A stretch of DNA of 64,000 nucleotides from the NCBI GenBank assembly GCA_015501585.1, contig JADNRY010000001.1, positions 1,364,001 through 1,428,000 of the forward strand, in the 5' to 3' direction. Positions 40,292 to 57,240 of the stretch are shown in pieces; the stretch's first letter is position 1; each line of letters starts with the position of its first letter. This DNA comes from Rhodocollybia butyracea. Lineage: Eukaryota; Basidiomycota; Agaricomycetes; Agaricales; Omphalotaceae. Both the position numbers and the translations under genes were made by a program. The notes below the pieces were generated by a model. It did no database searches. It saw nothing but the letters and a program-made list of their open reading frames with translations, and was not told the DNA's origin.

Positions 40292-40525
40292 ATTTGTACT
40301 AAGTGAGGGGTGCCGATGAGACCTTGAGTCCGAGGTTCAGGGTTCTTCCGTTGAGAAGTGCAACTACTTCATGGATGCTCTTCAATACTTCAGCTAGTGA
40401 CTGTAATATAAATCTATCATCATGCGTAGACGCGCACGACTTAAGGGCGCCAATTGATGGCATCGATCTGGCGCCAACGTTTTTTGCAAAATGCACTTCC
40501 AAAACACACTCTGGCCTTTGCCACC

Positions 40526-41817
40526 ATGTCTGCGCAAAAAAAATCACCCCAAATGCTCGTCGCCGTAGTCGGCGTCGGCCTCGTCGGTTCTGAATTCATC
40601 CACCAGCTCTTATCCATCCCTACCGAATCCTCCCCCTTCCGCCTCATCTCCCTCTCCTCCTCTTCCCGCTCCGTCTTCCTGGACCCAGCCCAAGCGATAA
40701 CATCCACCGCGAAATGGAAATCCATCCTATCCGCAAGCAACGAAAAACCCAACTTCGAAACCCTCACGCAGAAATTGTCTGCGCTGATATCCTCCTCGAC
40801 GAAAGTCGCTATCGTTGATAATACATCTTCGGAAGACATAGCTGCGCTGTATCCCGTATGGCTCAAAGCCGGCATCAACGTGATCACGCCGAATAAGAAG
40901 GCGTATTCTGGAGACCTTGGGCTATACGAGCGGATCGTGAGCGCAAGCAACGAAAGCGGCGCGCGGTTCTTGAATGAGTCGACTGTTGGCGCGGGGTTGC
41001 CTGTTATATCGACTTTGAAGGAACTAGTGGCTACTGGTGACAAGGTAAGCAAGCCGTTGAACAACGGTGTGTGTCCATCGCTAATTTGAGTGGAGAAAAG
41101 GTCAAGAAGATCGAAGGTGTTTTCTCCGGCACAATGAGCTACATCTTCAACGAGTTTTCTACTGGGTCCTCCGAAGGCCCCAGCTTTTCCTCTGTCGTCA
41201 GCGTAGCTCGTGAAAAGGGGTATACGGTCTGTTATCTATTTATCTTTCTGACTTCATACGTAGGAATTGATATTTGTACGACACAGGAACCTCACCCAGC
41301 CGACGATCTGAATGGGTTCGATGTCGCCCGAAAGCTTACGATTCTCTCCCGCACTATCGGGTCTGCAGCATCACTGCCCTCCCTGCAATCCTTCGCCTCT
41401 GTCCAAACAGCGTCTCTCATCCCCGCGGCGCTCGAAGGCATCCCCACAGGCGATGAGTTCCTCCAGAGGCTCCCAGAGTTCGACTCGGACTTTGACAAGA
41501 TGCGCAAGGAGGCAAGCGAAGAAGGCATGGTTCTGAGATTCGTTGGTGTCGTTGATGGCGTTAAAGGTGAAGTGAAAGCTGGGTTGGAGAAGTACGTGTT
41601 TTTCTTTTCTTTTCTAGGAGGTTTGGTTTGGTATTGATGAATCGCGTATAGGTATCCCACCTCGCATCCGTTCGCGACTTCTCTTGGCGGATCGGATAAT
41701 ATTATCATGTTCCACACGGAGCGGTACAGCCCGCGCCCGCTGATTGTCCAGGGCGCAGGGGCTGGCGCTGCAGTGACTGCGATGGGAGTACTAGGAGACC
41801 TACTCAAGTTGGTGTAG
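40526..41817 (+). CDS. HOM6: Homoserine dehydrogenase
   Basis: Reduces aspartate semialdehyde to homoserine with NAD(P)H, on the route to threonine and methionine. The ATG at 40526 sits in a strong context (GCCACCATGTC). An in-frame ATG at 40457 is possible but less favoured. The Rossmann motif [13 protein letters not shown] is followed by [33 protein letters not shown], the catalytic-domain block [37 protein letters not shown], and the end [20 protein letters not shown]. Three introns (41045-41100 and two more) keep the frame and give about 370 residues, normal for fungi. Two pseudogene copies lie at 44.1 and 55.9 kb. Confidence 0.93.
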
Positions 41818-42545
41818 AGAATGTGAATGTAAATGTTTCAAATGCTGTTGTCGTGCACAGAAGCGTCGCACACGGGAAGTTAACGTTTTAACATCCAGTG
41901 ATCCTACGAATTCCAGTATGGTACAAGTATCGAGCTGTTATCTCAGACGAACCTCTTGGCAATTGGATAATGTAAAGGTTCGAGCCGCCGTCCATTATCA
42001 ATATTGCGGTGAATGCAGACAGAATGAAGGCTAGCTAAGTATCGGTATTTGTCTTATCATTGCATGACTTGGCAGTAGATATTGGAAACATCGGGGGATA
42101 CTACTGGAGATTTGAGCTTGTGCGACACAAGTACGGGAATATTCCGTACGTGGTTTAAGAACTCGATTTTCGCAGTGGTTAACCGGAGAAACATCCGCCT
42201 CGTATCATTTTGATTGTTTGCCCCGTTTACCTACAATGTAGTTACTAAGTAAATAATCCGATCCTATCGCTTTACCGTCATCATCGTCTCAGAGTACCCC
42301 TCTGCCTCTTCTCGCATACCCGTACTGCTACAAGCCGCGCCAGGTTTTCCGCCTCCGCTCAAGTTCAACACCGATGCCTGGCTTCTTCCCGATGGTATAG
42401 ACACTTCCATTCCTTAGGCTATTCCTCTGACCTTGCCGACTTTTCAGGCTCATTCATCTTCGCAAATTCATCTGCTACGCCAGGCGATTGATTTAAGCCA
42501 TAGCGTTAAGTCTGAATCTTTAGTATAGTGAGATCAGTTTTCCGA

Positions 42546-43629
42546 TTAGGAAGAGGATAATGACGGTGACTGTCGAAGCAAGGCGTTGAGTAAGTTGGAC
42601 CGTCCATTATTCCGATGGACGGCTATGAATGGCATAGTATCGCCCTCATTGTAGAGTGTTTTTCCTCGAAGCTCTTGTGGTATTTGTAGAACCCTTAACA
42701 CGATGCTGTTCTCAGAGCTTCCACCCTCTGGATCGTAGTCTAGGCACATCGTACACACATTTCCTTCGCCCCGCAAATCTGACACTATTCGTCCGTTAAG
42801 GATTCGAAGATGAAGAGAAAAGAAAAACCCACCTTCGCTTTCCATTATTGACGTGTTAACTACAGCACGCAAAAAGATACGATCAGCCAGGTTAACAAAG
42901 CTGAGAGTGGTAGCTGTTCGGTTCATCATGACGCTGAATGGTTGTCGAAATGAGAGTATGGGAGTGTAGCTGCAGCTGGAAATCTCTATCCCTGAGACTC
43001 TCGAAGTCTTTAAATTGCTGTAGAACCTCTGGTGATATGACGTTGTCGAGGAGGCCCTCGAAAACGTTCTCAACGCCATGGTGATCCATAAGTTGCCACA
43101 TATTCATCTCCCAGGGAACACCTTTGGGCATGACGAGGTCCCTGCCTTTGGAGAACGATTCCAAAGGTGGCAAGTCTTTATCACAGATTCTAAACCGCAG
43201 AGTTGAAGCAGCTTGATGAACATCTGGTATGCGATGTAGATAAAGGTAGCCGTGGGTTCCGGGTGGGTACGGTTGATACCCGTTACGGAGTCGTAGGTAC
43301 GGTTGATCCTTGATACGAGGTCGAACGGTATCGTAGTAACGCCGATATATAATAGCAACACTTTTGTAGAATACAGAAAGGGATGTTCTATCTCCAATGT
43401 CGATGAAATCTGACGCAACAAGACGTTCAGGATCCAGAGTGGATATGTTCTGTGAGTAATGTTTTAGCTGTACCACTCAAATAAGAATGAAAGCGCAACA
43501 CGCACGTATCTGTTTCGTGATTTTCTTCTTTGCTTTAAGGACACGGCAGAAGACACATATCGAGCGTTTAAAAGGCTGGTAACATTAAGGTGATTGACTG
43601 CCCGCAAGTTGAGAGACTGAAAAAGCATT
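42546..43629 (-). pseudogene. Unknown basidiomycete gene, copy 1 (5-nt deletion)
   Basis: The start MLFQSLNLRAVNHLNVTSLL at 43629 leads through one intron to NISTLDPERLVASDFIDIG, ESFSKGRDLVMPKGVPWEMN, VENVFEGLLDNVISPEVL, and after further introns to LYNEGDTMPFIAVHRNNGRS and a stop at 42546. I do not recognise the family. Compared with the second copy at 52.3-55.0 kb, five bases are missing after LQLHS (near 42970). That shifts the reading of the next block (ILSFRQPFSVMMNRTATTL), so this copy is probably inactive. Confidence 0.6.
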
Positions 43630-43924
43630 GGCTCAGATGTTTTAAGCGCCGATGACTTTTGGGCGCTTATTTCCTTATTTGCTTCACTGACCTTTTCATC
43701 AACATCAGACTGACCTTAGGTGACCTATTTTTCGCAAAAAAGCGCCAAGTGCTATGCGTTAGTTTAGATGTCCACAAATGGAATCGCGTCATTCTCATAC
43801 CAAATTCCTTTAGTCTCATACCGACGCTCTCTGGCAACCCCAATCCAAGCTTGTAGCGGTGGCTTGTTCACGACATTATCAAATGTTGGAATTTTTTAAA
43901 TACCTGAATCTGGAGCCCTCGTCC

Positions 43925-44763
43925 TCCTCCAGACAACATCCCTCTCAGGATGCAGGATGCGAGCTTCCAGCTCATCCCTTTAAGTTTTCAATCACCGGGG
44001 TCCGGTCCTCCAGCTGCCAACATAGCTTTTTCTTAGCTTTTTATGCTCTTAAAACCGATGCTTCTGCCGTTACCTCTTCAACGAGTTTTCAACGGGATCC
44101 TCCGAGGGCCCCAGCTTTTCCTCTGTCGTCAGTTGTAGCTCGTGAAAAGGGTATATGGTCTGTTACCTGTTATCTTCCTGAACGTCTTATACATAACAAC
44201 TGACGTTTGTAACGACATTCTTGTTTTCAGTAACCTCACCTAGCGGACGACTTAAACGGGTTTGATGTCGCGAGAAAGCTTACAATTCTCTCCCGCACGA
44301 ACGGGTCTGCAGCATCACTATCCTCCCTGCGATCCTTCGCCTCTGTCCAAACGGCGTCTCTCATTCCCGCGATTCGAAGGCATCTCCACGGGCGACGAGC
44401 TCCTGCAGAGGCTTCCACAATTTGACTCGGACTTTGACAAGATGGAAGGAGGCAAGTGAGGAAGGCATGGTTCTGAGATTCGTTGGTGTCGTTGATGGCG
44501 TTAAGGGTCAAGTGAAAGCTGGGTTGAGGAAGTACGTCTTTTTCTTTCTTTTCTTTTTTGGGGAGGTTTGGTTTGGTATTGATGAATCGTGTATAGGTAT
44601 CCTACCTCGCATCCGTTCGCGACTTCTCTTGGCGGATCGGATAATATTATTATGTTCCACATGGAGCGGTACAGCCCGCGCCGCTGATTGTCCAGGGCGC
44701 AGGGGCCGGCGCTGCAGTGACTGCGATGGAAGTACTAGGAGACCTACTCAAGTTGGTGTAGAG
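43925..44763 (+). pseudogene. HOM6 C-terminal pseudogene, copy A, with unrelated 5' fragment
   Basis: From about 44070 the sequence follows HOM6 from the FNEFSTG block to the stop, including the positions of the last two introns. This points to DNA duplication rather than retroposition. Losses include bases around the GIPTGDE block, the MRKEAS block (written as GATGGAAGGAGG) and one base in the RPLIVQG block. Upstream of 44070 the sequence is not HOM6. It matches the fragment at 55200-55390. Confidence 0.75.
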
Positions 44764-45130
44764 AATGTGAATGTAAATCGTTCCATGTTTCAAATACTGT
44801 TGTCGTGCACAGAAGCGTCAGACGACCACTCGAGTAAATCCGGGAAGTTCACTTTTCAACATCCAGAGACCCACGAAATTATGTTATCTCAGACGAACCT
44901 CTTACCAGTTGGATAATGTAAAAGGTTCGCGTGGCCATCTATTATCAATATTGCGGTGGATGCAGACAGATCGAAGTATTGTGTTATCATTTCGTGACTT
45001 TGCAAGAGATCTTGGAATCATCGGAGGCCACTGGATACTCGAGCCTGTGCGACCCAAGTAAGGGAATCTTCCGTACGTGGTTTAAAAACTCAGTTTTCGC
45101 AACGGTTTACCGGCAATTTTAGGAACATCC

Positions 45131-52044: not shown

Positions 52045-52867
52045 TGTTGCGTTTTGACTGTTTGCCCCGTTTACCTACCGTTGGTTACTAAGTAAATAAT
52101 CTAATCCCATCGTTTTACCGTCATCGTCGCCTCAGAGTATCCCTCTTCGTGTTCTCGCATACCCGTACTGCAACAAGCCGCGCCAGATTTTCCGCCTCCG
52201 CTCAAGCTCAACACCGGATCCCCGGATGCCTGGCTTCTTCCCGATGGTATAGACACTTCCATTCCTTAGGCTATTCCTCTAACCTTGCCGACTTTTCAAG
52301 TTCGTTCACCTTCGTAAATCCGTCTGCTATAATGACGGTGACTGTCGAAGCAAGGCGTCGAGTAAATTGGGCCGTAGCTGTCCAGTGTCCCGGTTGAAGG
52401 CTATGAATGGCATAGTATCGCCCTCATTGTAGAGTGTTTTTCCTCGAAGTTCTTCTGGTATTTGTAGAACCCTTAACACGATGCTGTCCTCAGAGCTTCC
52501 ACCCTCTGAATCGTAGTCTAGGCACATCGTACACACATTTCCTTCGCCCCGCAAATCTGACACTGCTCGCCCGTTGAGGATTTTGAAGATGAAGAGAAAG
52601 AAAACTCACCTTTGCCTTCCATTATTGACGTTTTAACTACAGTATGCACAAGGACACGATCAGCCAGGTTAACAAAGCTGAGGTTGTTAGTTGTTTGGTT
52701 TATCATGACGCTGAATGGCTGTCGGAATGAGAGTATGGGAGGAGAGTGTAGCTGCAGCCGTAAATTTCTTTCCCTGAGACTCTCAAAGTCTTTGAGTTGC
52801 TGTAGAGCCTCTGGTGATATGACGTTGTCGAGAAGGAGGCCATCGAAAACGTTCTCAACGCCAAAGT

Positions 52868-53033
52868 TGTTGGATATTTATCCTGGGCTGCTCAATCGAG
52901 GCTGTGGACAAACACATATATACAAATGATGTGTAACTACAACCCTTGATAACAATCTAATAGTAGTCTTGAACCGCCATCTCAGAGCCATCTCAGAGCC
53001 ATCTAAGAGTCTAGGAGTCTTTATTAACCAACA
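52868..53033 (+). repeat. 5' LTR
   Basis: 166 bp, TG...CA. It includes a short internal triplication of GCCATCTCAGA-like units near 52977-53008. Confidence 0.92.
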
Positions 53034-53049
53034 GGTTATGGGCCCCGTG
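53034..53049 (+). promoter_or_regulatory. Primer-binding site of the LTR element
   Basis: GGTTATGGGCCCCGTG abuts the 5' LTR. Likely primer: an internal half of initiator Met-tRNA, as in copia. The exact match depends on this fungus's tRNA sequence. Confidence 0.65.
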
Positions 53050-53174
53050 TCCACACTATACATCTAGGAGTTTTATTCATCATCTAGGAGCTTTACTTTT
53101 CACCCAATCACTCAATCTCACTCATTTCATCATCCCATCCCCAATCCCTTTTCAACGACTCATATTCATTCACT

Positions 53175-54272
53175 ATGGCCACACTTTCAGCTCTTCTTAA
53201 TCTTGGAAGGAACATTCCCCTACTTTCCACTACAAATGCTGATGACTGGAGCAACTGGAAAGAGGATGTTCTGCAAATGGTGCTTAGTGCAGATGGTCAG
53301 AGCGCCAAGATTGCCACAGGGTTGACTTCACGTCCATCAGAGGCTGCTGATGCCAAGGAATGGGATCGACTCAACTCACAGGCTGCGTCCATCATTAAAT
53401 CCCTCACTAATCGAGACTGCCGAAACATCTACAAGGATAAGACAAATGCTTCCGAAATCTGGAGTGCACTTGTCTCCTATTTTGAAAAATCATCATTTTC
53501 CTCACGTTCAGCTACACGTGCTGCCTATCACCGCATTACGCATGATCCGCTTAAACCAACCAAAGTCTATCTTGATGCTTTGGATGATATGCGTGCTCGT
53601 CTTCAGGCACTACTCCCTTCTGGTGAAACAATCTCTGATAGTTATCACAAGGATATCATGCTCCAGAACCTTCATTCATCATTCGAGGCCTGGAAAACAT
53701 CTCTTCTCGCCCAACCTACTGGCGAGCCCAATCTTAAAACCTGCCGCACTGTTCTTGAGAGTGCTATGGTTTCATTTGACCCTGAGAAGAGAGCCGATGA
53801 AATTTTAGATGGGATTAATAACCCATCTGAACCATCCTCCCGTGTAGAGGCTGCTCATGCTTATGCTACAGCTTTCCGAAAGGGAAGTAAAGGAGGAAGT
53901 CGGAATGGATCTGGTACTAGGGAAAGTTTTAGTGGTAGAGGGGGAGGAAGAGGGGGAGCTTCCAATGGAAGCGGCCATGAAGATGGACAAGGATTTATAG
54001 ACAGTCGCGGAAATCGCTGGTGCGATATGTCTATGGATGGCTGTCACCGTTGTGGAGGTATGTCGCACAAGGCTTCTAACTGTGTCAAGGACATGCCAGA
54101 GGAAGTCAAGCACTGGTGTCTTAACCGCACATATGACACTGCGCACATCACTCACAATCCTCCCAATAACATCTCTTCACATTTCATTGCTCCTATTGAT
54201 ACTTATGGTTTTTCTGCTCATCCTACTTGTCCACCCTTTGAAGAGGAGGAGTATATTGATTTTCATGCTTGA
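53175..54272 (+). CDS. gag: Gag polyprotein of the LTR element
   Basis: A 365-residue intron-free protein. Residues 15-210 have the pattern of Copia-type Gag (UBN2/retrotran_gag-like): NADDWSNWKEDVLQMVLSAD, IWSALVSYFEKSSFSSRSAT, YLDALDDMRARLQALLPSGE, DIMLQNLHSSFEAWKTSLL. A glycine/arginine/serine-rich linker follows (GRGGGRGGASNGSG). A CCHC zinc knuckle CHRCGGMSHKASNC (C-x2-C-x4-H-x4-C) lies near residue 290, and the tail is acidic (FEEEEYIDFHA). The protein should coat the element's RNA and form particles. The intact frame fits recent activity. No pol frame exists between its stop and the 3' LTR, only about 50 bp. Confidence 0.9.
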   Translation: MATLSALLNLGRNIPLLSTTNADDWSNWKEDVLQMVLSADGQSAKIATGLTSRPSEAADAKEWDRLNSQAASIIKSLTNRDCRNIYKDKTNASEIWSALVSYFEKSSFSSRSATRAAYHRITHDPLKPTKVYLDALDDMRARLQALLPSGETISDSYHKDIMLQNLHSSFEAWKTSLLAQPTGEPNLKTCRTVLESAMVSFDPEKRADEILDGINNPSEPSSRVEAAHAYATAFRKGSKGGSRNGSGTRESFSGRGGGRGGASNGSGHEDGQGFIDSRGNRWCDMSMDGCHRCGGMSHKASNCVKDMPEEVKHWCLNRTYDTAHITHNPPNNISSHFIAPIDTYGFSAHPTCPPFEEEEYIDFHA

Positions 54273-54310
54273 TTATATTTATAGCTTAGGGGGAGCTCTC
54301 TTTGTTTCGC

Positions 54311-54320
54311 AGAGGGGGAG
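54311..54320 (+). promoter_or_regulatory. Polypurine tract of the LTR element
   Basis: AGAGGGGGAG ends exactly at the first base of the 3' LTR, the expected primer site for plus-strand DNA synthesis. Confidence 0.8.
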
Positions 54321-54486
54321 TGTTGGATATTTATCCTGGGCTGCTCAATCGAGGCTGTGGACAAACACATATATACAAATGATGTGTAACTACAACCCTT
54401 GATAACAATCTAATAGTAGTCTTGAACCGCCATCTCAGAGCCATCTCAGAGCCATCTAAGAGTCTAGGAGTCTTTATTAACCAACA
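54321..54486 (+). repeat. 3' LTR
   Basis: 166 bp. I see no difference from the 5' LTR by eye. It is followed by the target duplication AAAGT. Confidence 0.92.
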
Positions 54487-55199
54487 AAAGTGATCCATAA
54501 GTTGCCACATATTCATCTCCCAGGGAATACCTTTGGGCATGACGAGGTCCCTGCCTTTGGAGAACGATTCCAAAGGTGGCAAGTCTTTATCACAGATTTT
54601 AAACCGCAGAGTTGAAGCAGCTTGATGAACATCTGGTATGCGATGTAGATAAAGGTAGCCGTGGGTTCCGGGTGGGTACGGTTGATACCTGTTACGGTGC
54701 GGTTGATATTTTTTAGGTCGGGTATCGTAGTAACGCCGATATATAACAGCAAAACTTTTGTAGAGTACAGAAATGCACGTTCTATCTCCAATGTCGATGA
54801 AATCTGACGCGACAAGACGTTCAGGATCCAGAGTAGATATGTTCTGTGAGGAATGTTTGGTGTACCACTTAAATAAGTTGAAAGCGCAACACGCACAAAT
54901 CTTTTTCGTGAGTTTCTTCTTTGCTTTGGGGGCACGGCAGAAGACACATATCGAGCGTTTAAAAGGCTGGTAACATTAACGCGATTCACTGCCCGCAAGT
55001 TGAGAGACTGAAAAAAGCACTGGAGAAGAGTCATCACGTCTTAAGCGCCGTGAGACTTCTGGGCGTTCATTTCCTTCTTTGATTGACCATTCCGGAGGTC
55101 AACCTATTTTTCCTAAAAAGCGCCAAGTGTTATGCGTTAGTTTAGCTAATGGAATCGCGGTCATTCTCATACTTTCAGTCCAAACCGACGCTCTCTGGC

Positions 55200-55390
55200 A
55201 ACCCAATCCATCCCAGCTTCACCCATCATCTGAATCTGGAGCCTCGTTGGTCATTATTTTCCTCCAGACAACGCTCTCTCAGGATACCAGCTTATCACCC
55301 TTTCTCATCATCGGGTCCGGTCATCTAGCTGCATATCGTGTTTTTGCTGCTCTTGAAGCCGATGCTTCTGTGATCAGGGAACGCTTGCGA
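55200..55390 (+). pseudogene. Fragment resembling a siroheme-pathway dehydrogenase N-terminus
   Basis: One frame reads FLIIGSGHLAAYRVFAALEA followed by DASVI. This resembles the NAD-binding start of fungal precorrin-2 dehydrogenase or uroporphyrinogen methyltransferase proteins (pattern VLIIGSGxLAASRxFxALEADAxV). Only about 60 codons are present. A poorer copy lies upstream of HOM6 pseudogene A (43925-44070). The assignment rests on one motif. Confidence 0.45.
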
Positions 55391-55559
55391 GGAGATGCAA
55401 TGGAGATAGGGCAAACTTGGATGAATACAACACATCGGAAAACGTGATTGGTTCCTCTAATGAACAACGGAAGACGAGTGGTTTCGGATGATATATTTAT
55501 GATTTAATTTATGCAGCAGATTCACCCTGGGCCTAGAGCTGAAGCACTGAAGGCCCGAC

Positions 55560-55910
55560 TGGGATACCTGACACTCAAAGTTTCCTCGACCTTACGTGCC
55601 ACGTCTGTCCCTTTCTTCATTCCTTTCATCTCCACATCCCATGTCCTCAACATCAATCCTTCCAAGCCAACCACCGCCAGCGCCAAATGAACGTTCTCCG
55701 CTTCTATCCCTGGGCCCAGGCCTGAAACCTCATTGCCTAGCCGGAACACGGCTCCGTCGGATCTTGGGAAGTTGGGCAAGAGCAGAGTGGCGACCGGAAC
55801 TAGCGAAACAGCTGTGCGAGCCAAGGTGGCGGACGAAATAGAAACAACGAGGGAGAAAGCCAATGTACTCTCTGCCACTGACTGTGGTGTGTCGTGCCCG
55901 TCCTGCGATT
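55560..55910 (+). pseudogene. 5' fragment of the DUF202 gene
   Basis: Matches the promoter and first exon of the gene at 58172. Shared blocks include CGTGCCACGTCTGTC, CATGTCCTCAA, AACCACCGCCAG, CGGAACACGGCTCCGTCGGA and GCAGAGTAGCGA-like segments, with small deletions throughout. It ends near 55910, where HOM6-like sequence takes over. Confidence 0.75.
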
Positions 55911-55919
55911 CCCTACCTG

Positions 55920-57240
55920 GAGACGCCTCTATCTCCCTCTCCTCTTCCTGCTCCGTCTTCCTGGACCCAGCCCACGCGATAACCTCGACCGACAAAATTA
56001 ACTTGAAATCCATCCTATCCGCAAGCAACGAAAAACCCAACTACGAAACCTCACGCGGAAGCTATCTGCAGCCTCGACGAAAGTCGCTATCGTCGATAAT
56101 ACACCGGAAGACATAGCTGCTCTGTATCCCGTGTGGCTCAAAGCCCACATCAACGTAGGCACGCCGAACAAGATCTGGGGAGCTCGGGCTGTCCGAGTGG
56201 ATCGTGAGCGCAGGCAAGGAAAGCGGCGCGGGGTTGCCTGTTGATATACTGGTGACAAGGTTCGCAAGCCCTTAAAAAGGGTGTTATTTTTTATACGGGG
56301 CGTCTATCGCTAATGGAGTGCAGAAAAGGTCACGAAGATCGAAGGTGTTTTCTCCGGAACAATGAGCTACATCTTCAACGAATTTTCTACTGGATCCTCT
56401 GAGGGCCCCCAACTTTTCCTCTGTCGTCAGCTGTAGCTCGTGAAAAGGAGTATACGGTCTGTTTCTGTTATCTTTCTGTTTATCTTTCTGACATAGGCAA
56501 CTGACGTTTTGTACGACATTTTTTTCTTGTCTTTTTATTCAGGAACCCCATCTAACCTCACCCCGCGGACGATTTGAACGGGCTTGATGTCGCCCGAACG
56601 CTTACGCGTACGATTCTCTCCCGCGCTACCGGGCCTACAGGGCCAGCAGCATCACTGCCCTCCCTGTCCTCCTTCGCCTCTGTCCAAACGGCGTCTCTCA
56701 TCCCCGCGGCCGACGAGTTTCCTACAGGTTCCTACAGAGTAACACAGGCTTCCCGAATTCGATTCCGACGTCGACAAGATGCAGAACGGGGCAGGCGAGG
56801 CAAGCGAGAAGGCATGGTTCTGAGATCCGTTTGGTGTCGTTGATGGTGAAGTGAAAGCTGGGTTGGAAACGGCATCTCTCATTCCCGCGGCGTTCGAAGC
56901 CAAGGTTCTGAGATTCGTTTGGTGTCGTTGATGGTGTTATGGGTGAAGTGAAAGCTGAGTTGGCCTCGAAGTACGTCTTTTTATCTTTTCTTTTTTGGGG
57001 AGGTTTTGGACCTTGGTACTGACGAGTTGCGTGTAGGTAGGTATAGGTATCCTACCTCGCACCCGTTCGCGACTTCTATTGGCGGATCTGATAGTAATAT
57101 TATCATGTTCCACACGGAGCGGTACAGCGCGCGCGCACGCCCGCCGATTGTCCGGGGCGCAGGGGGCCGGCGCCGCGGTGTCATCTTTCTGGCAATGAAA
57201 GCACTAGGAGACCTACTGAAATTGCTGCAGAGAGAGAAAA
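55920..57240 (+). pseudogene. HOM6 pseudogene, copy B
   Basis: Follows HOM6 from the [13 protein letters not shown] block to the GVLGDLLKL end, with intron positions retained. Many small deletions are seen: [10 protein letters not shown] shortened, the [14 protein letters not shown] block broken, ESTVGAG lost. A stretch around [14 protein letters not shown] is duplicated locally (56819-56870 and 56905-56960). It cannot encode an enzyme. Confidence 0.8.

Follow-up and report, generated by a model that had tools for sequence, protein, structure and literature searches.

A putative non-autonomous, gag-only LTR retrotransposon family of Copia type in the fungus Rhodocollybia butyracea

Results

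A gag-only element in the window

The window analysed here is a 64,000-nucleotide stretch of the Rhodocollybia butyracea genome (contig JADNRY010000001.1, positions 1,364,001 to 1,428,000, forward strand), and positions 52868 to 54486 hold an element bounded by long terminal repeats (LTRs). We read this element as a non-autonomous gag-only LTR retrotransposon of Copia (hemivirus) type whose enzymes would be supplied in trans, and from the sequence evidence we put the probability of this reading at roughly three in four. It has two LTRs with a primer-binding site (PBS) and a polypurine tract (PPT), a single intact Gag open reading frame (ORF), and a family of copies without pol, the features of the terminal-repeat retrotransposons with a GAG domain (TR-GAG). 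The parts of the element and its empty counterpart are as follows.

52863..52867, + strand: target-site duplication AAAGT, left copy, by sequence reading
52868..53033, + strand: 5' LTR, 166 bp, TGTTGG...CCAACA, 100% identical to 54321-54486
53034..53047, + strand: PBS GGTTATGGGCCCCG, complement of the tRNA-Met(CAT) anticodon half, ending at nucleotide 40
53175..54272, + strand: gag ORF, 365 aa, the longest sense ORF, with a Copia-type capsid and a zinc knuckle and without pol
54042..54083, + strand: CCHC zinc knuckle, CX2CX4HX4C, residues 290-303
54311..54320, + strand: PPT AGAGGGGGAG, adjoining the 3' LTR
54321..54486, + strand: 3' LTR, 166 bp, 100% identical to the 5' LTR
54487..54491, + strand: target-site duplication AAAGT, right copy
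42782..43288, + strand: paralogous empty site, a host segment without the insertion, by alignment to the filled site

The initial annotation of this stretch had described two 166-bp LTRs without a difference, a PBS touching the 5' LTR, a PPT touching the 3' LTR, a 5-bp AAAGT duplication, and a Gag with a CCHC knuckle as the only product, pol being absent. All of this was borne out. The LTRs are identical throughout, the PBS begins at 53034 immediately 3' of the 5' LTR, the 365-aa ORF matches the Pfam family PF14223, and only 48 bp separate the gag stop from the 3' LTR.

The empty site lies approximately 10 kb upstream in the same window and is identical to the filled site in 469 of 516 aligned columns. 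It contains ATGGT once where the filled site shows AAAGT twice; the insertion is thus precise and, most simply, younger than the duplication of the host segment. The duplicated host segment occupies 40441-44916 and 52327-56040, and its repeated pieces come from a reading frame that by eye resembles homoserine dehydrogenase and from the gene next to it, with the element inside one copy of that second gene. Within the element, CCATCTCAGAG occurs three times in near-tandem arrangement in the LTR (52868-53033), and CATCTAGGAG occurs twice in the leader (53061-53100). These repeats are possible candidates for packaging or dimerisation signals.

Absence of pol across the family

The genome searched was a 95.6-Mb draft assembly of 1381 contigs. 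The PPT/3'-LTR junction GGGGGAGTGTTGGATATTTA (GGGGGAG/TGTTGGATATTTA) occurs at 45 exact places, all of them behind a family Gag match: the distance is 44-45 bp in 41 and 100 bp in the other 4, in which the Gag match ends at residue 346-347. A junction that follows pol was not found among these 45. The initial annotation had raised the prospect that most copies with the same LTRs bear pol, and the gag-only interpretation withstood this comparison.

The LTR/PBS junction CCAACAGGTTATGGGCCC, which is common to other Copia families, was found at 139 places in the genome. Among the 100 listed, 48 have a family Gag no more than 400 bp downstream and 52 do not. We read the sequence at 22 of the 52 Gag-less places; each is the LTR end of CopA or CopB, two Copia families considered below, and the window-family LTR was absent from these 22. 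The remaining 30 include 19 with a same-strand RVT_2 match 2.5-4.5 kb downstream and 11 without one. At C535:67836-68206, two same-strand LTR/PBS junctions lie 353 bp apart beside a window-family copy, possibly a tandem or nested LTR.

Copy number, age and selection

The genome was searched with the whole element (40 matches scored of 90 candidates) and with the Gag protein (112 scored of 217); counts from both searches are lower bounds. The search for further copies of the same structure, proposed in the initial annotation, uncovered a family rather than a single copy. All 40 scored whole-element matches span 1.59-1.62 kb at 97-100% identity, with 38 covering all 1619 positions and 2 stopping at position 1597. 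When the 93 family rows of the Gag search were joined by position, at least 66 loci were obtained. All 365 residues are covered in 42 of the 66 (35 stop-free and 7 with stops), and the other 24 are shorter or have a broken frame. The top score, at 100% identity, is shared by 13 rows, that of the window among them. Because of this copy number, chance is excluded as the source of the structure.

Twenty-one distinct copies were read at full length with their flanks, 13 of which had entered through a search that listed perfect LTRs only. Matching 5-bp target duplications were found in 20 of the 21, the exception being the copy on C727, and the duplication ACACC is common to the copies on C852 and C711. 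Gag is intact in 15 copies and broken in 6. Allelic duplication was considered as a source of inflated copy number and rejected, as the flanks differ among the 21 copies (megablast, matches >150 bp). The insertions with target duplications, together with the paralogous empty site, point to past movement of the family.

The LTR pair lacks ungapped differences in 17 of the 21 copies, a figure biased by the perfect-LTR search; among copies chosen by whole-element similarity, the pairs are identical in 8 of 8. As proof of youth, identical LTRs are weak, given that zero differences over 166 bp bound age loosely: at a fungal substitution rate of 1.05e-9, as quoted in PMC5689174, such a pair allows an age of up to approximately 8.6 million years (95%, our own arithmetic). 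Two copies match that of the window at 99.876% identity across 1619 bp, which corresponds to approximately 0.6 million years at the same rate. Near identity between copies over 1.6 kb is better evidence of youth than LTR identity.

Variants in the Gag ORF were compared among 22 copies, the 21 above and that on C652. Variants present in at least two copies comprise 6 synonymous and 2 non-synonymous changes, and those confined to one copy comprise 11 synonymous changes, 35 non-synonymous changes and 3 stops (Fisher p 0.006). This pattern fits a Gag that is constrained in copies leaving descendants and decays neutrally afterwards, small as the numbers are.

The element might instead be a passenger resembling the terminal-repeat retrotransposons in miniature (TRIMs), its RNA packaged and copied by a helper, its Gag dispensable and its ORF open merely through youth. 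Consistent with this are the stops in 7 of the 42 full-coverage Gag loci, the 6 of 21 copies with a broken Gag, ratios of non-synonymous to synonymous substitution (dN/dS) of 0.81 and 0.71 in two diverged copies, and a PBS, PPT and LTR tips that match those of CopA. TRIMs proper are defined by the absence of coding capacity, and here a 365-aa Gag is intact. Against the passenger reading, shared variants are mostly synonymous, and a full-length Gag is kept in other species, in proteins P0002 and P0004 at approximately 80% and 45% identity to the window Gag. We consider a passenger of this kind very unlikely.

Origin and relatives of the Gag

The best genomic matches to the Gag that do not belong to the family are eight rows at 23-28% identity. 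Five of these belong to another gag-only family, and the last three (C886, C572 and C581) look like Copia gag with a downstream protease or RVT_2. The genome yielded no gag-pol protein whose Gag is similar (the next best has 23% identity), and no outside Gag exceeded 28% identity among the scored matches of the Gag search.

A search of the protein collection at Gag length (subjects 0.55-1.75 times the query length) returned 7 proteins of 206-392 aa, including the query itself; the named relatives are two from Mucidula mucida and a partial one from Lentinula raphanica. Long relatives (approximately 590-1876 aa) were absent at E 0.001 among 7020 candidates from the collection, in a search that required shared 5-residue words. 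As a positive control, the CopB Gag searched by the same design returned 56 proteins of 597-1453 aa with identity down to 28%, and 55 of the 56 carry the integrase core PF00665. The contigs of P0002 (1442 bp) and P0003 (1362 bp) are close in length to one LTR plus the internal part of the window element (1453 bp), which is suggestive only. P0003 is probably a decayed copy, because its C-terminus is shifted.

Nineteen Gag sequences, including eight gag-pol Gags and that of C302, whose type is unclear, were placed in an unrooted tree with large distances. One group (99.9/100) unites the window Gag with P0002, P0004 and P0006 and contains no gag-pol Gag; it remains free of gag-pol Gags when joined with those of families II and III, described below (94/94 and 95.2/83).

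These data bear on the idea that a resident autonomous Copia element recently lost pol and that the truncated copy was amplified. A precedent exists in Arabidopsis, where the TR-GAG element AT5TE33540 is described as closely resembling an autonomous ATCOPIA63 member (PMC8704663), and a draft assembly could lack the parent element. No pol-bearing copy with the window LTR was seen, however, at the junctions read, no outside Gag is more than 28% identical, and the collection holds no long protein relative, yet does hold gag-sized relatives from other species. A recent internal deletion is therefore unlikely, and we rejected it as the principal explanation: the sequences searched held no pol-bearing relative of either the LTR or the Gag. 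Instead of stemming from a fresh deletion in a resident Copia element, the lineage was probably already gag-only before the divergence of several agaric species. In its broadest form, which we advance tentatively, the proposal is that fungi harbour long-lived capsid-only lineages, several per genome, that have no autonomous parent, keep Gag under selection through speciation, and take enzymes from unrelated Copia elements with the same primer site and LTR tips.

Predicted structure of the Gag protein

The window Gag matches PF14223 (Retrotran_gag_2) at E 9.6e-10, with 38.6 bits against a cut-off of 27. A first structure model was poor (mean predicted local distance difference test score 49.9) and was discarded, with no fold search made from it. 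The second is good for residues 1-200 only. The best structural match to its capsid part is the Copia capsid, which the window capsid is thus predicted to resemble; the lobe arrangement of the model is unlike that of Copia (root-mean-square deviation 13.9 over 182 residues). The PF14223 domain and the capsid match supply the Copia-type Gag of the superfamily, and the superfamily's integrase upstream of reverse transcriptase is lacking, the element being without pol. The element is a derivative or satellite of the Copia superfamily, not an autonomous member.

The predicted C-terminal capsid lobe also resembles Ty1 p22, which raises the idea of an interfering or restriction element, in which the capsid mainly poisons autonomous Copia particles, like Ty1 p22 and Drt2, and a benefit to the host helps keep the ORF. 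The match to p22 is unspecific, however, since the model aligns with a large number of capsids. The element has kept all the cis parts needed to replicate itself, encodes a full-length capsid and has made many recent insertions, and a Gag so far from the resident Copia Gags would poison inefficiently. We regard restriction as highly improbable.

Further gag-only families in the genome

Besides the window family (I), the genome contains four more gag-only families (II-V), of which family IV is a probable one with its LTRs covered in part. One Gag from each of II-V was checked, and each scored above the PF14223 cut-off.

Family II (L091 on C201, L092 on C570 and L096 on C633; 20 loci by our own contig count) encodes a Gag of approximately 415-416 aa with a CCHC knuckle and falls into two subfamilies at 81-83% protein identity. 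Its LTR is approximately 134 bp in L096, its PBS match is 10 nt (GGTTATGGGC), and the target duplications are GACTC (L096) and TTTCC (L091, read by eye). The 5' and 3' LTRs of L091 are strikingly different by eye though TTTCC matches on both sides, which suggests recombination or template switching between variants.

Family III (L095 on C580 and L099 on C919) has LTRs of 214-216 bp, duplications CTTTC and GTATA, and in L095 a 271-aa Gag. This Gag ends in AHVAIDSGYAF, which we take to resemble the start of the Copia protease active site; family III may be a deletion derivative cut in the protease.

Family IV (L100 on C997 and L101 on C501) encodes a 265-aa Gag with diverged direct repeats upstream. 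The repeated LTR end is covered over 34 bp in L100 and not at all in L101, and the family is probably gag-only, as judged by frame and context and not by complete LTRs. Relatives at 41-51% identity lie on C984, C136, C279, C1109 and C472.

Family V (L102 on C542 and L103 on C905) encodes a 301-aa Gag between LTRs of approximately 226 bp, with a 15-nt half-tRNA PBS GGTTATGGGCCCCGC. In L103, an extra TCACA follows the 3' LTR, and then a possible target duplication GAAGG.

Pairwise searches make III and IV mutual best matches (E approximately 1e-22), and IV matches V at approximately 1e-15. For family V, the match with the Copia Gag of C471 (3e-13) is nearly as good as that with IV, and III matches several gag-pol frames at approximately 1e-8, equal to or better than its match with V (1e-7 to 1e-6). 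The tree sets I, II and III apart from all gag-pol Gags (95.2/83), whereas pairwise searches put III nearer IV; V falls beside CopB and C302 (70.8/41). A single gag-only clade for all five families was considered and is unsupported, as the tree places IV and V in the midst of gag-pol Gags, if with weak support (89.2/63). Given the pairwise closeness of III and V to gag-pol Gags, multiple origins are likely.

Priming and candidate helpers

Two tRNA-Met(CAT) genes on C1 carry GCGCGCGGGGCCCATAACCCCG, to which the PBS GGTTATGGGCCCCG is perfectly complementary over 14 nt, the match ending at nucleotide 40 of the tRNA. From the anticodon-arm consensus, we take these two genes to be initiator genes. 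ARAGORN detected no tRNA genes in the window, and at a tRNA-pattern match on C927 (L098) there is no tRNA gene. The element has the half-tRNA primer site of a hemivirus; a half-tRNA primer ending at nucleotide 40 is given for the hemiviruses copia and Ty5 (PMC1181622).

CopA is a young autonomous Copia family. Its LTR is approximately 348 bp, and 11 RVT_2 places lie in frames of 1458-1459 aa (our own count); in a CopA copy, the LTR pair is identical over the 335 bases compared and a single 1459-aa frame is present (L055, L069, C750). CopA and the window element have GAGGGGGAG/TGTTGGATATT and CCAACA/GGTTATGGGCCCCG in common, and blastn of the two LTRs aligned only an 11-bp tip and a 9-bp inverted match. 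CopB (1466-aa frame) and the window element are alike over 23 bp at the PBS side. Sharing of the PBS is weak evidence for a specific helper pair because all use the same tRNA, and CopA and CopB are candidate, unproven helpers. For the full-length Copia partner with matching LTR ends or PBS that the initial annotation proposed to look for, CopA and CopB are candidates by their PBS and LTR tips; the LTR bodies and Gags differ. The borrowing of reverse transcriptase and integrase described in that annotation is inferred from the absent pol and past mobility.

Discussion

We propose that the LTR would drive transcription of the element and that the RNA would be translated into a Gag that packages the same RNA in virus-like particles. 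Reverse transcriptase and integrase would be supplied in trans by an autonomous Copia element with compatible ends, for which CopA and CopB are the best candidates. Gag may have been retained through cis preference, each RNA being captured by its own translation product, whereas the enzymes can come from other elements.

Several observations weigh against this model. The Gags of CopA (10.8% in the tree alignment) and CopB (15.3% in that alignment, 17% in another comparison) have so little identity to the window Gag that co-assembly is not expected. The dN/dS values relative to the window copy, 0.81 (C652) and 0.71 (C1334), are not clearly below 1, post-insertion mutations being included, and the selection counts are small. 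An autonomous parent could be missing from an assembly in 1381 contigs, and the reading of LTR/PBS sequences covers 22 of the 52 listed Gag-less junctions, with 39 more junctions unlisted.

If the model is correct, a retroelement can persist for long on a capsid and cis signals alone, with capsid function separated from polymerase function. It would also raise the question of how a Gag with only approximately 11-20% identity to the eight resident gag-pol Gags in the comparison obtains Pol. The genome is a natural system in which helper use, cis preference and interference are directly testable, as it holds many intact copies that are nearly identical, others that have decayed, four more gag-only families and a young candidate helper.

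The literature search yielded papers on TR-GAG elements of plants and, for fungi, papers mentioning TRIMs, large retrotransposon derivatives (LARDs) or non-autonomous elements. No fungal TR-GAG was found in the open-access literature searched, which mostly excludes subscription papers, where a description may exist. The window family is best filed as a fungal TR-GAG-type element: like those of plants, it has two LTRs, one intact Gag ORF and no pol. Transposition of one TR-GAG element is shown in Arabidopsis ddm1 (PMC8704663), and such elements are reported in sunflower (PMC9784723). The present case differs in its fungal host, in the several families in one genome and, from AT5TE33540, in that no autonomous element sharing its Gag or LTR was found. 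The fungal element also has a half-tRNA primer site.

With the Copia/Ty5 hemiviruses (Pseudoviridae) the element shares a PF14223 Gag, the CCHC knuckle, 5-bp duplications and a half-tRNA primer to nucleotide 40 (PMC1181622), and the Copia capsid is the best structural match of its modelled Gag; unlike them, it lacks protease, integrase, reverse transcriptase and RNase H. TRIMs and LARDs of Boletales are likewise non-autonomous LTR elements of basidiomycetes, but are described in PMC5689174 as non-coding, whereas the window element encodes Gag. Ty1 p22 and Drt2 are also Gag capsid proteins without pol, with a similar predicted C-terminal lobe, and p22, which blocks Ty1, is the C-terminal half of Ty1 Gag (PMC4599808). 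The window Gag, in contrast to p22, is full length and lies inside a complete LTR element. In barley, BARE2 belongs to a pair of Copia elements, one autonomous and one not, that have cis signals in common; it lacks Gag and has kept the enzymes. The window element would be its mirror image, keeping Gag and lacking the enzymes.
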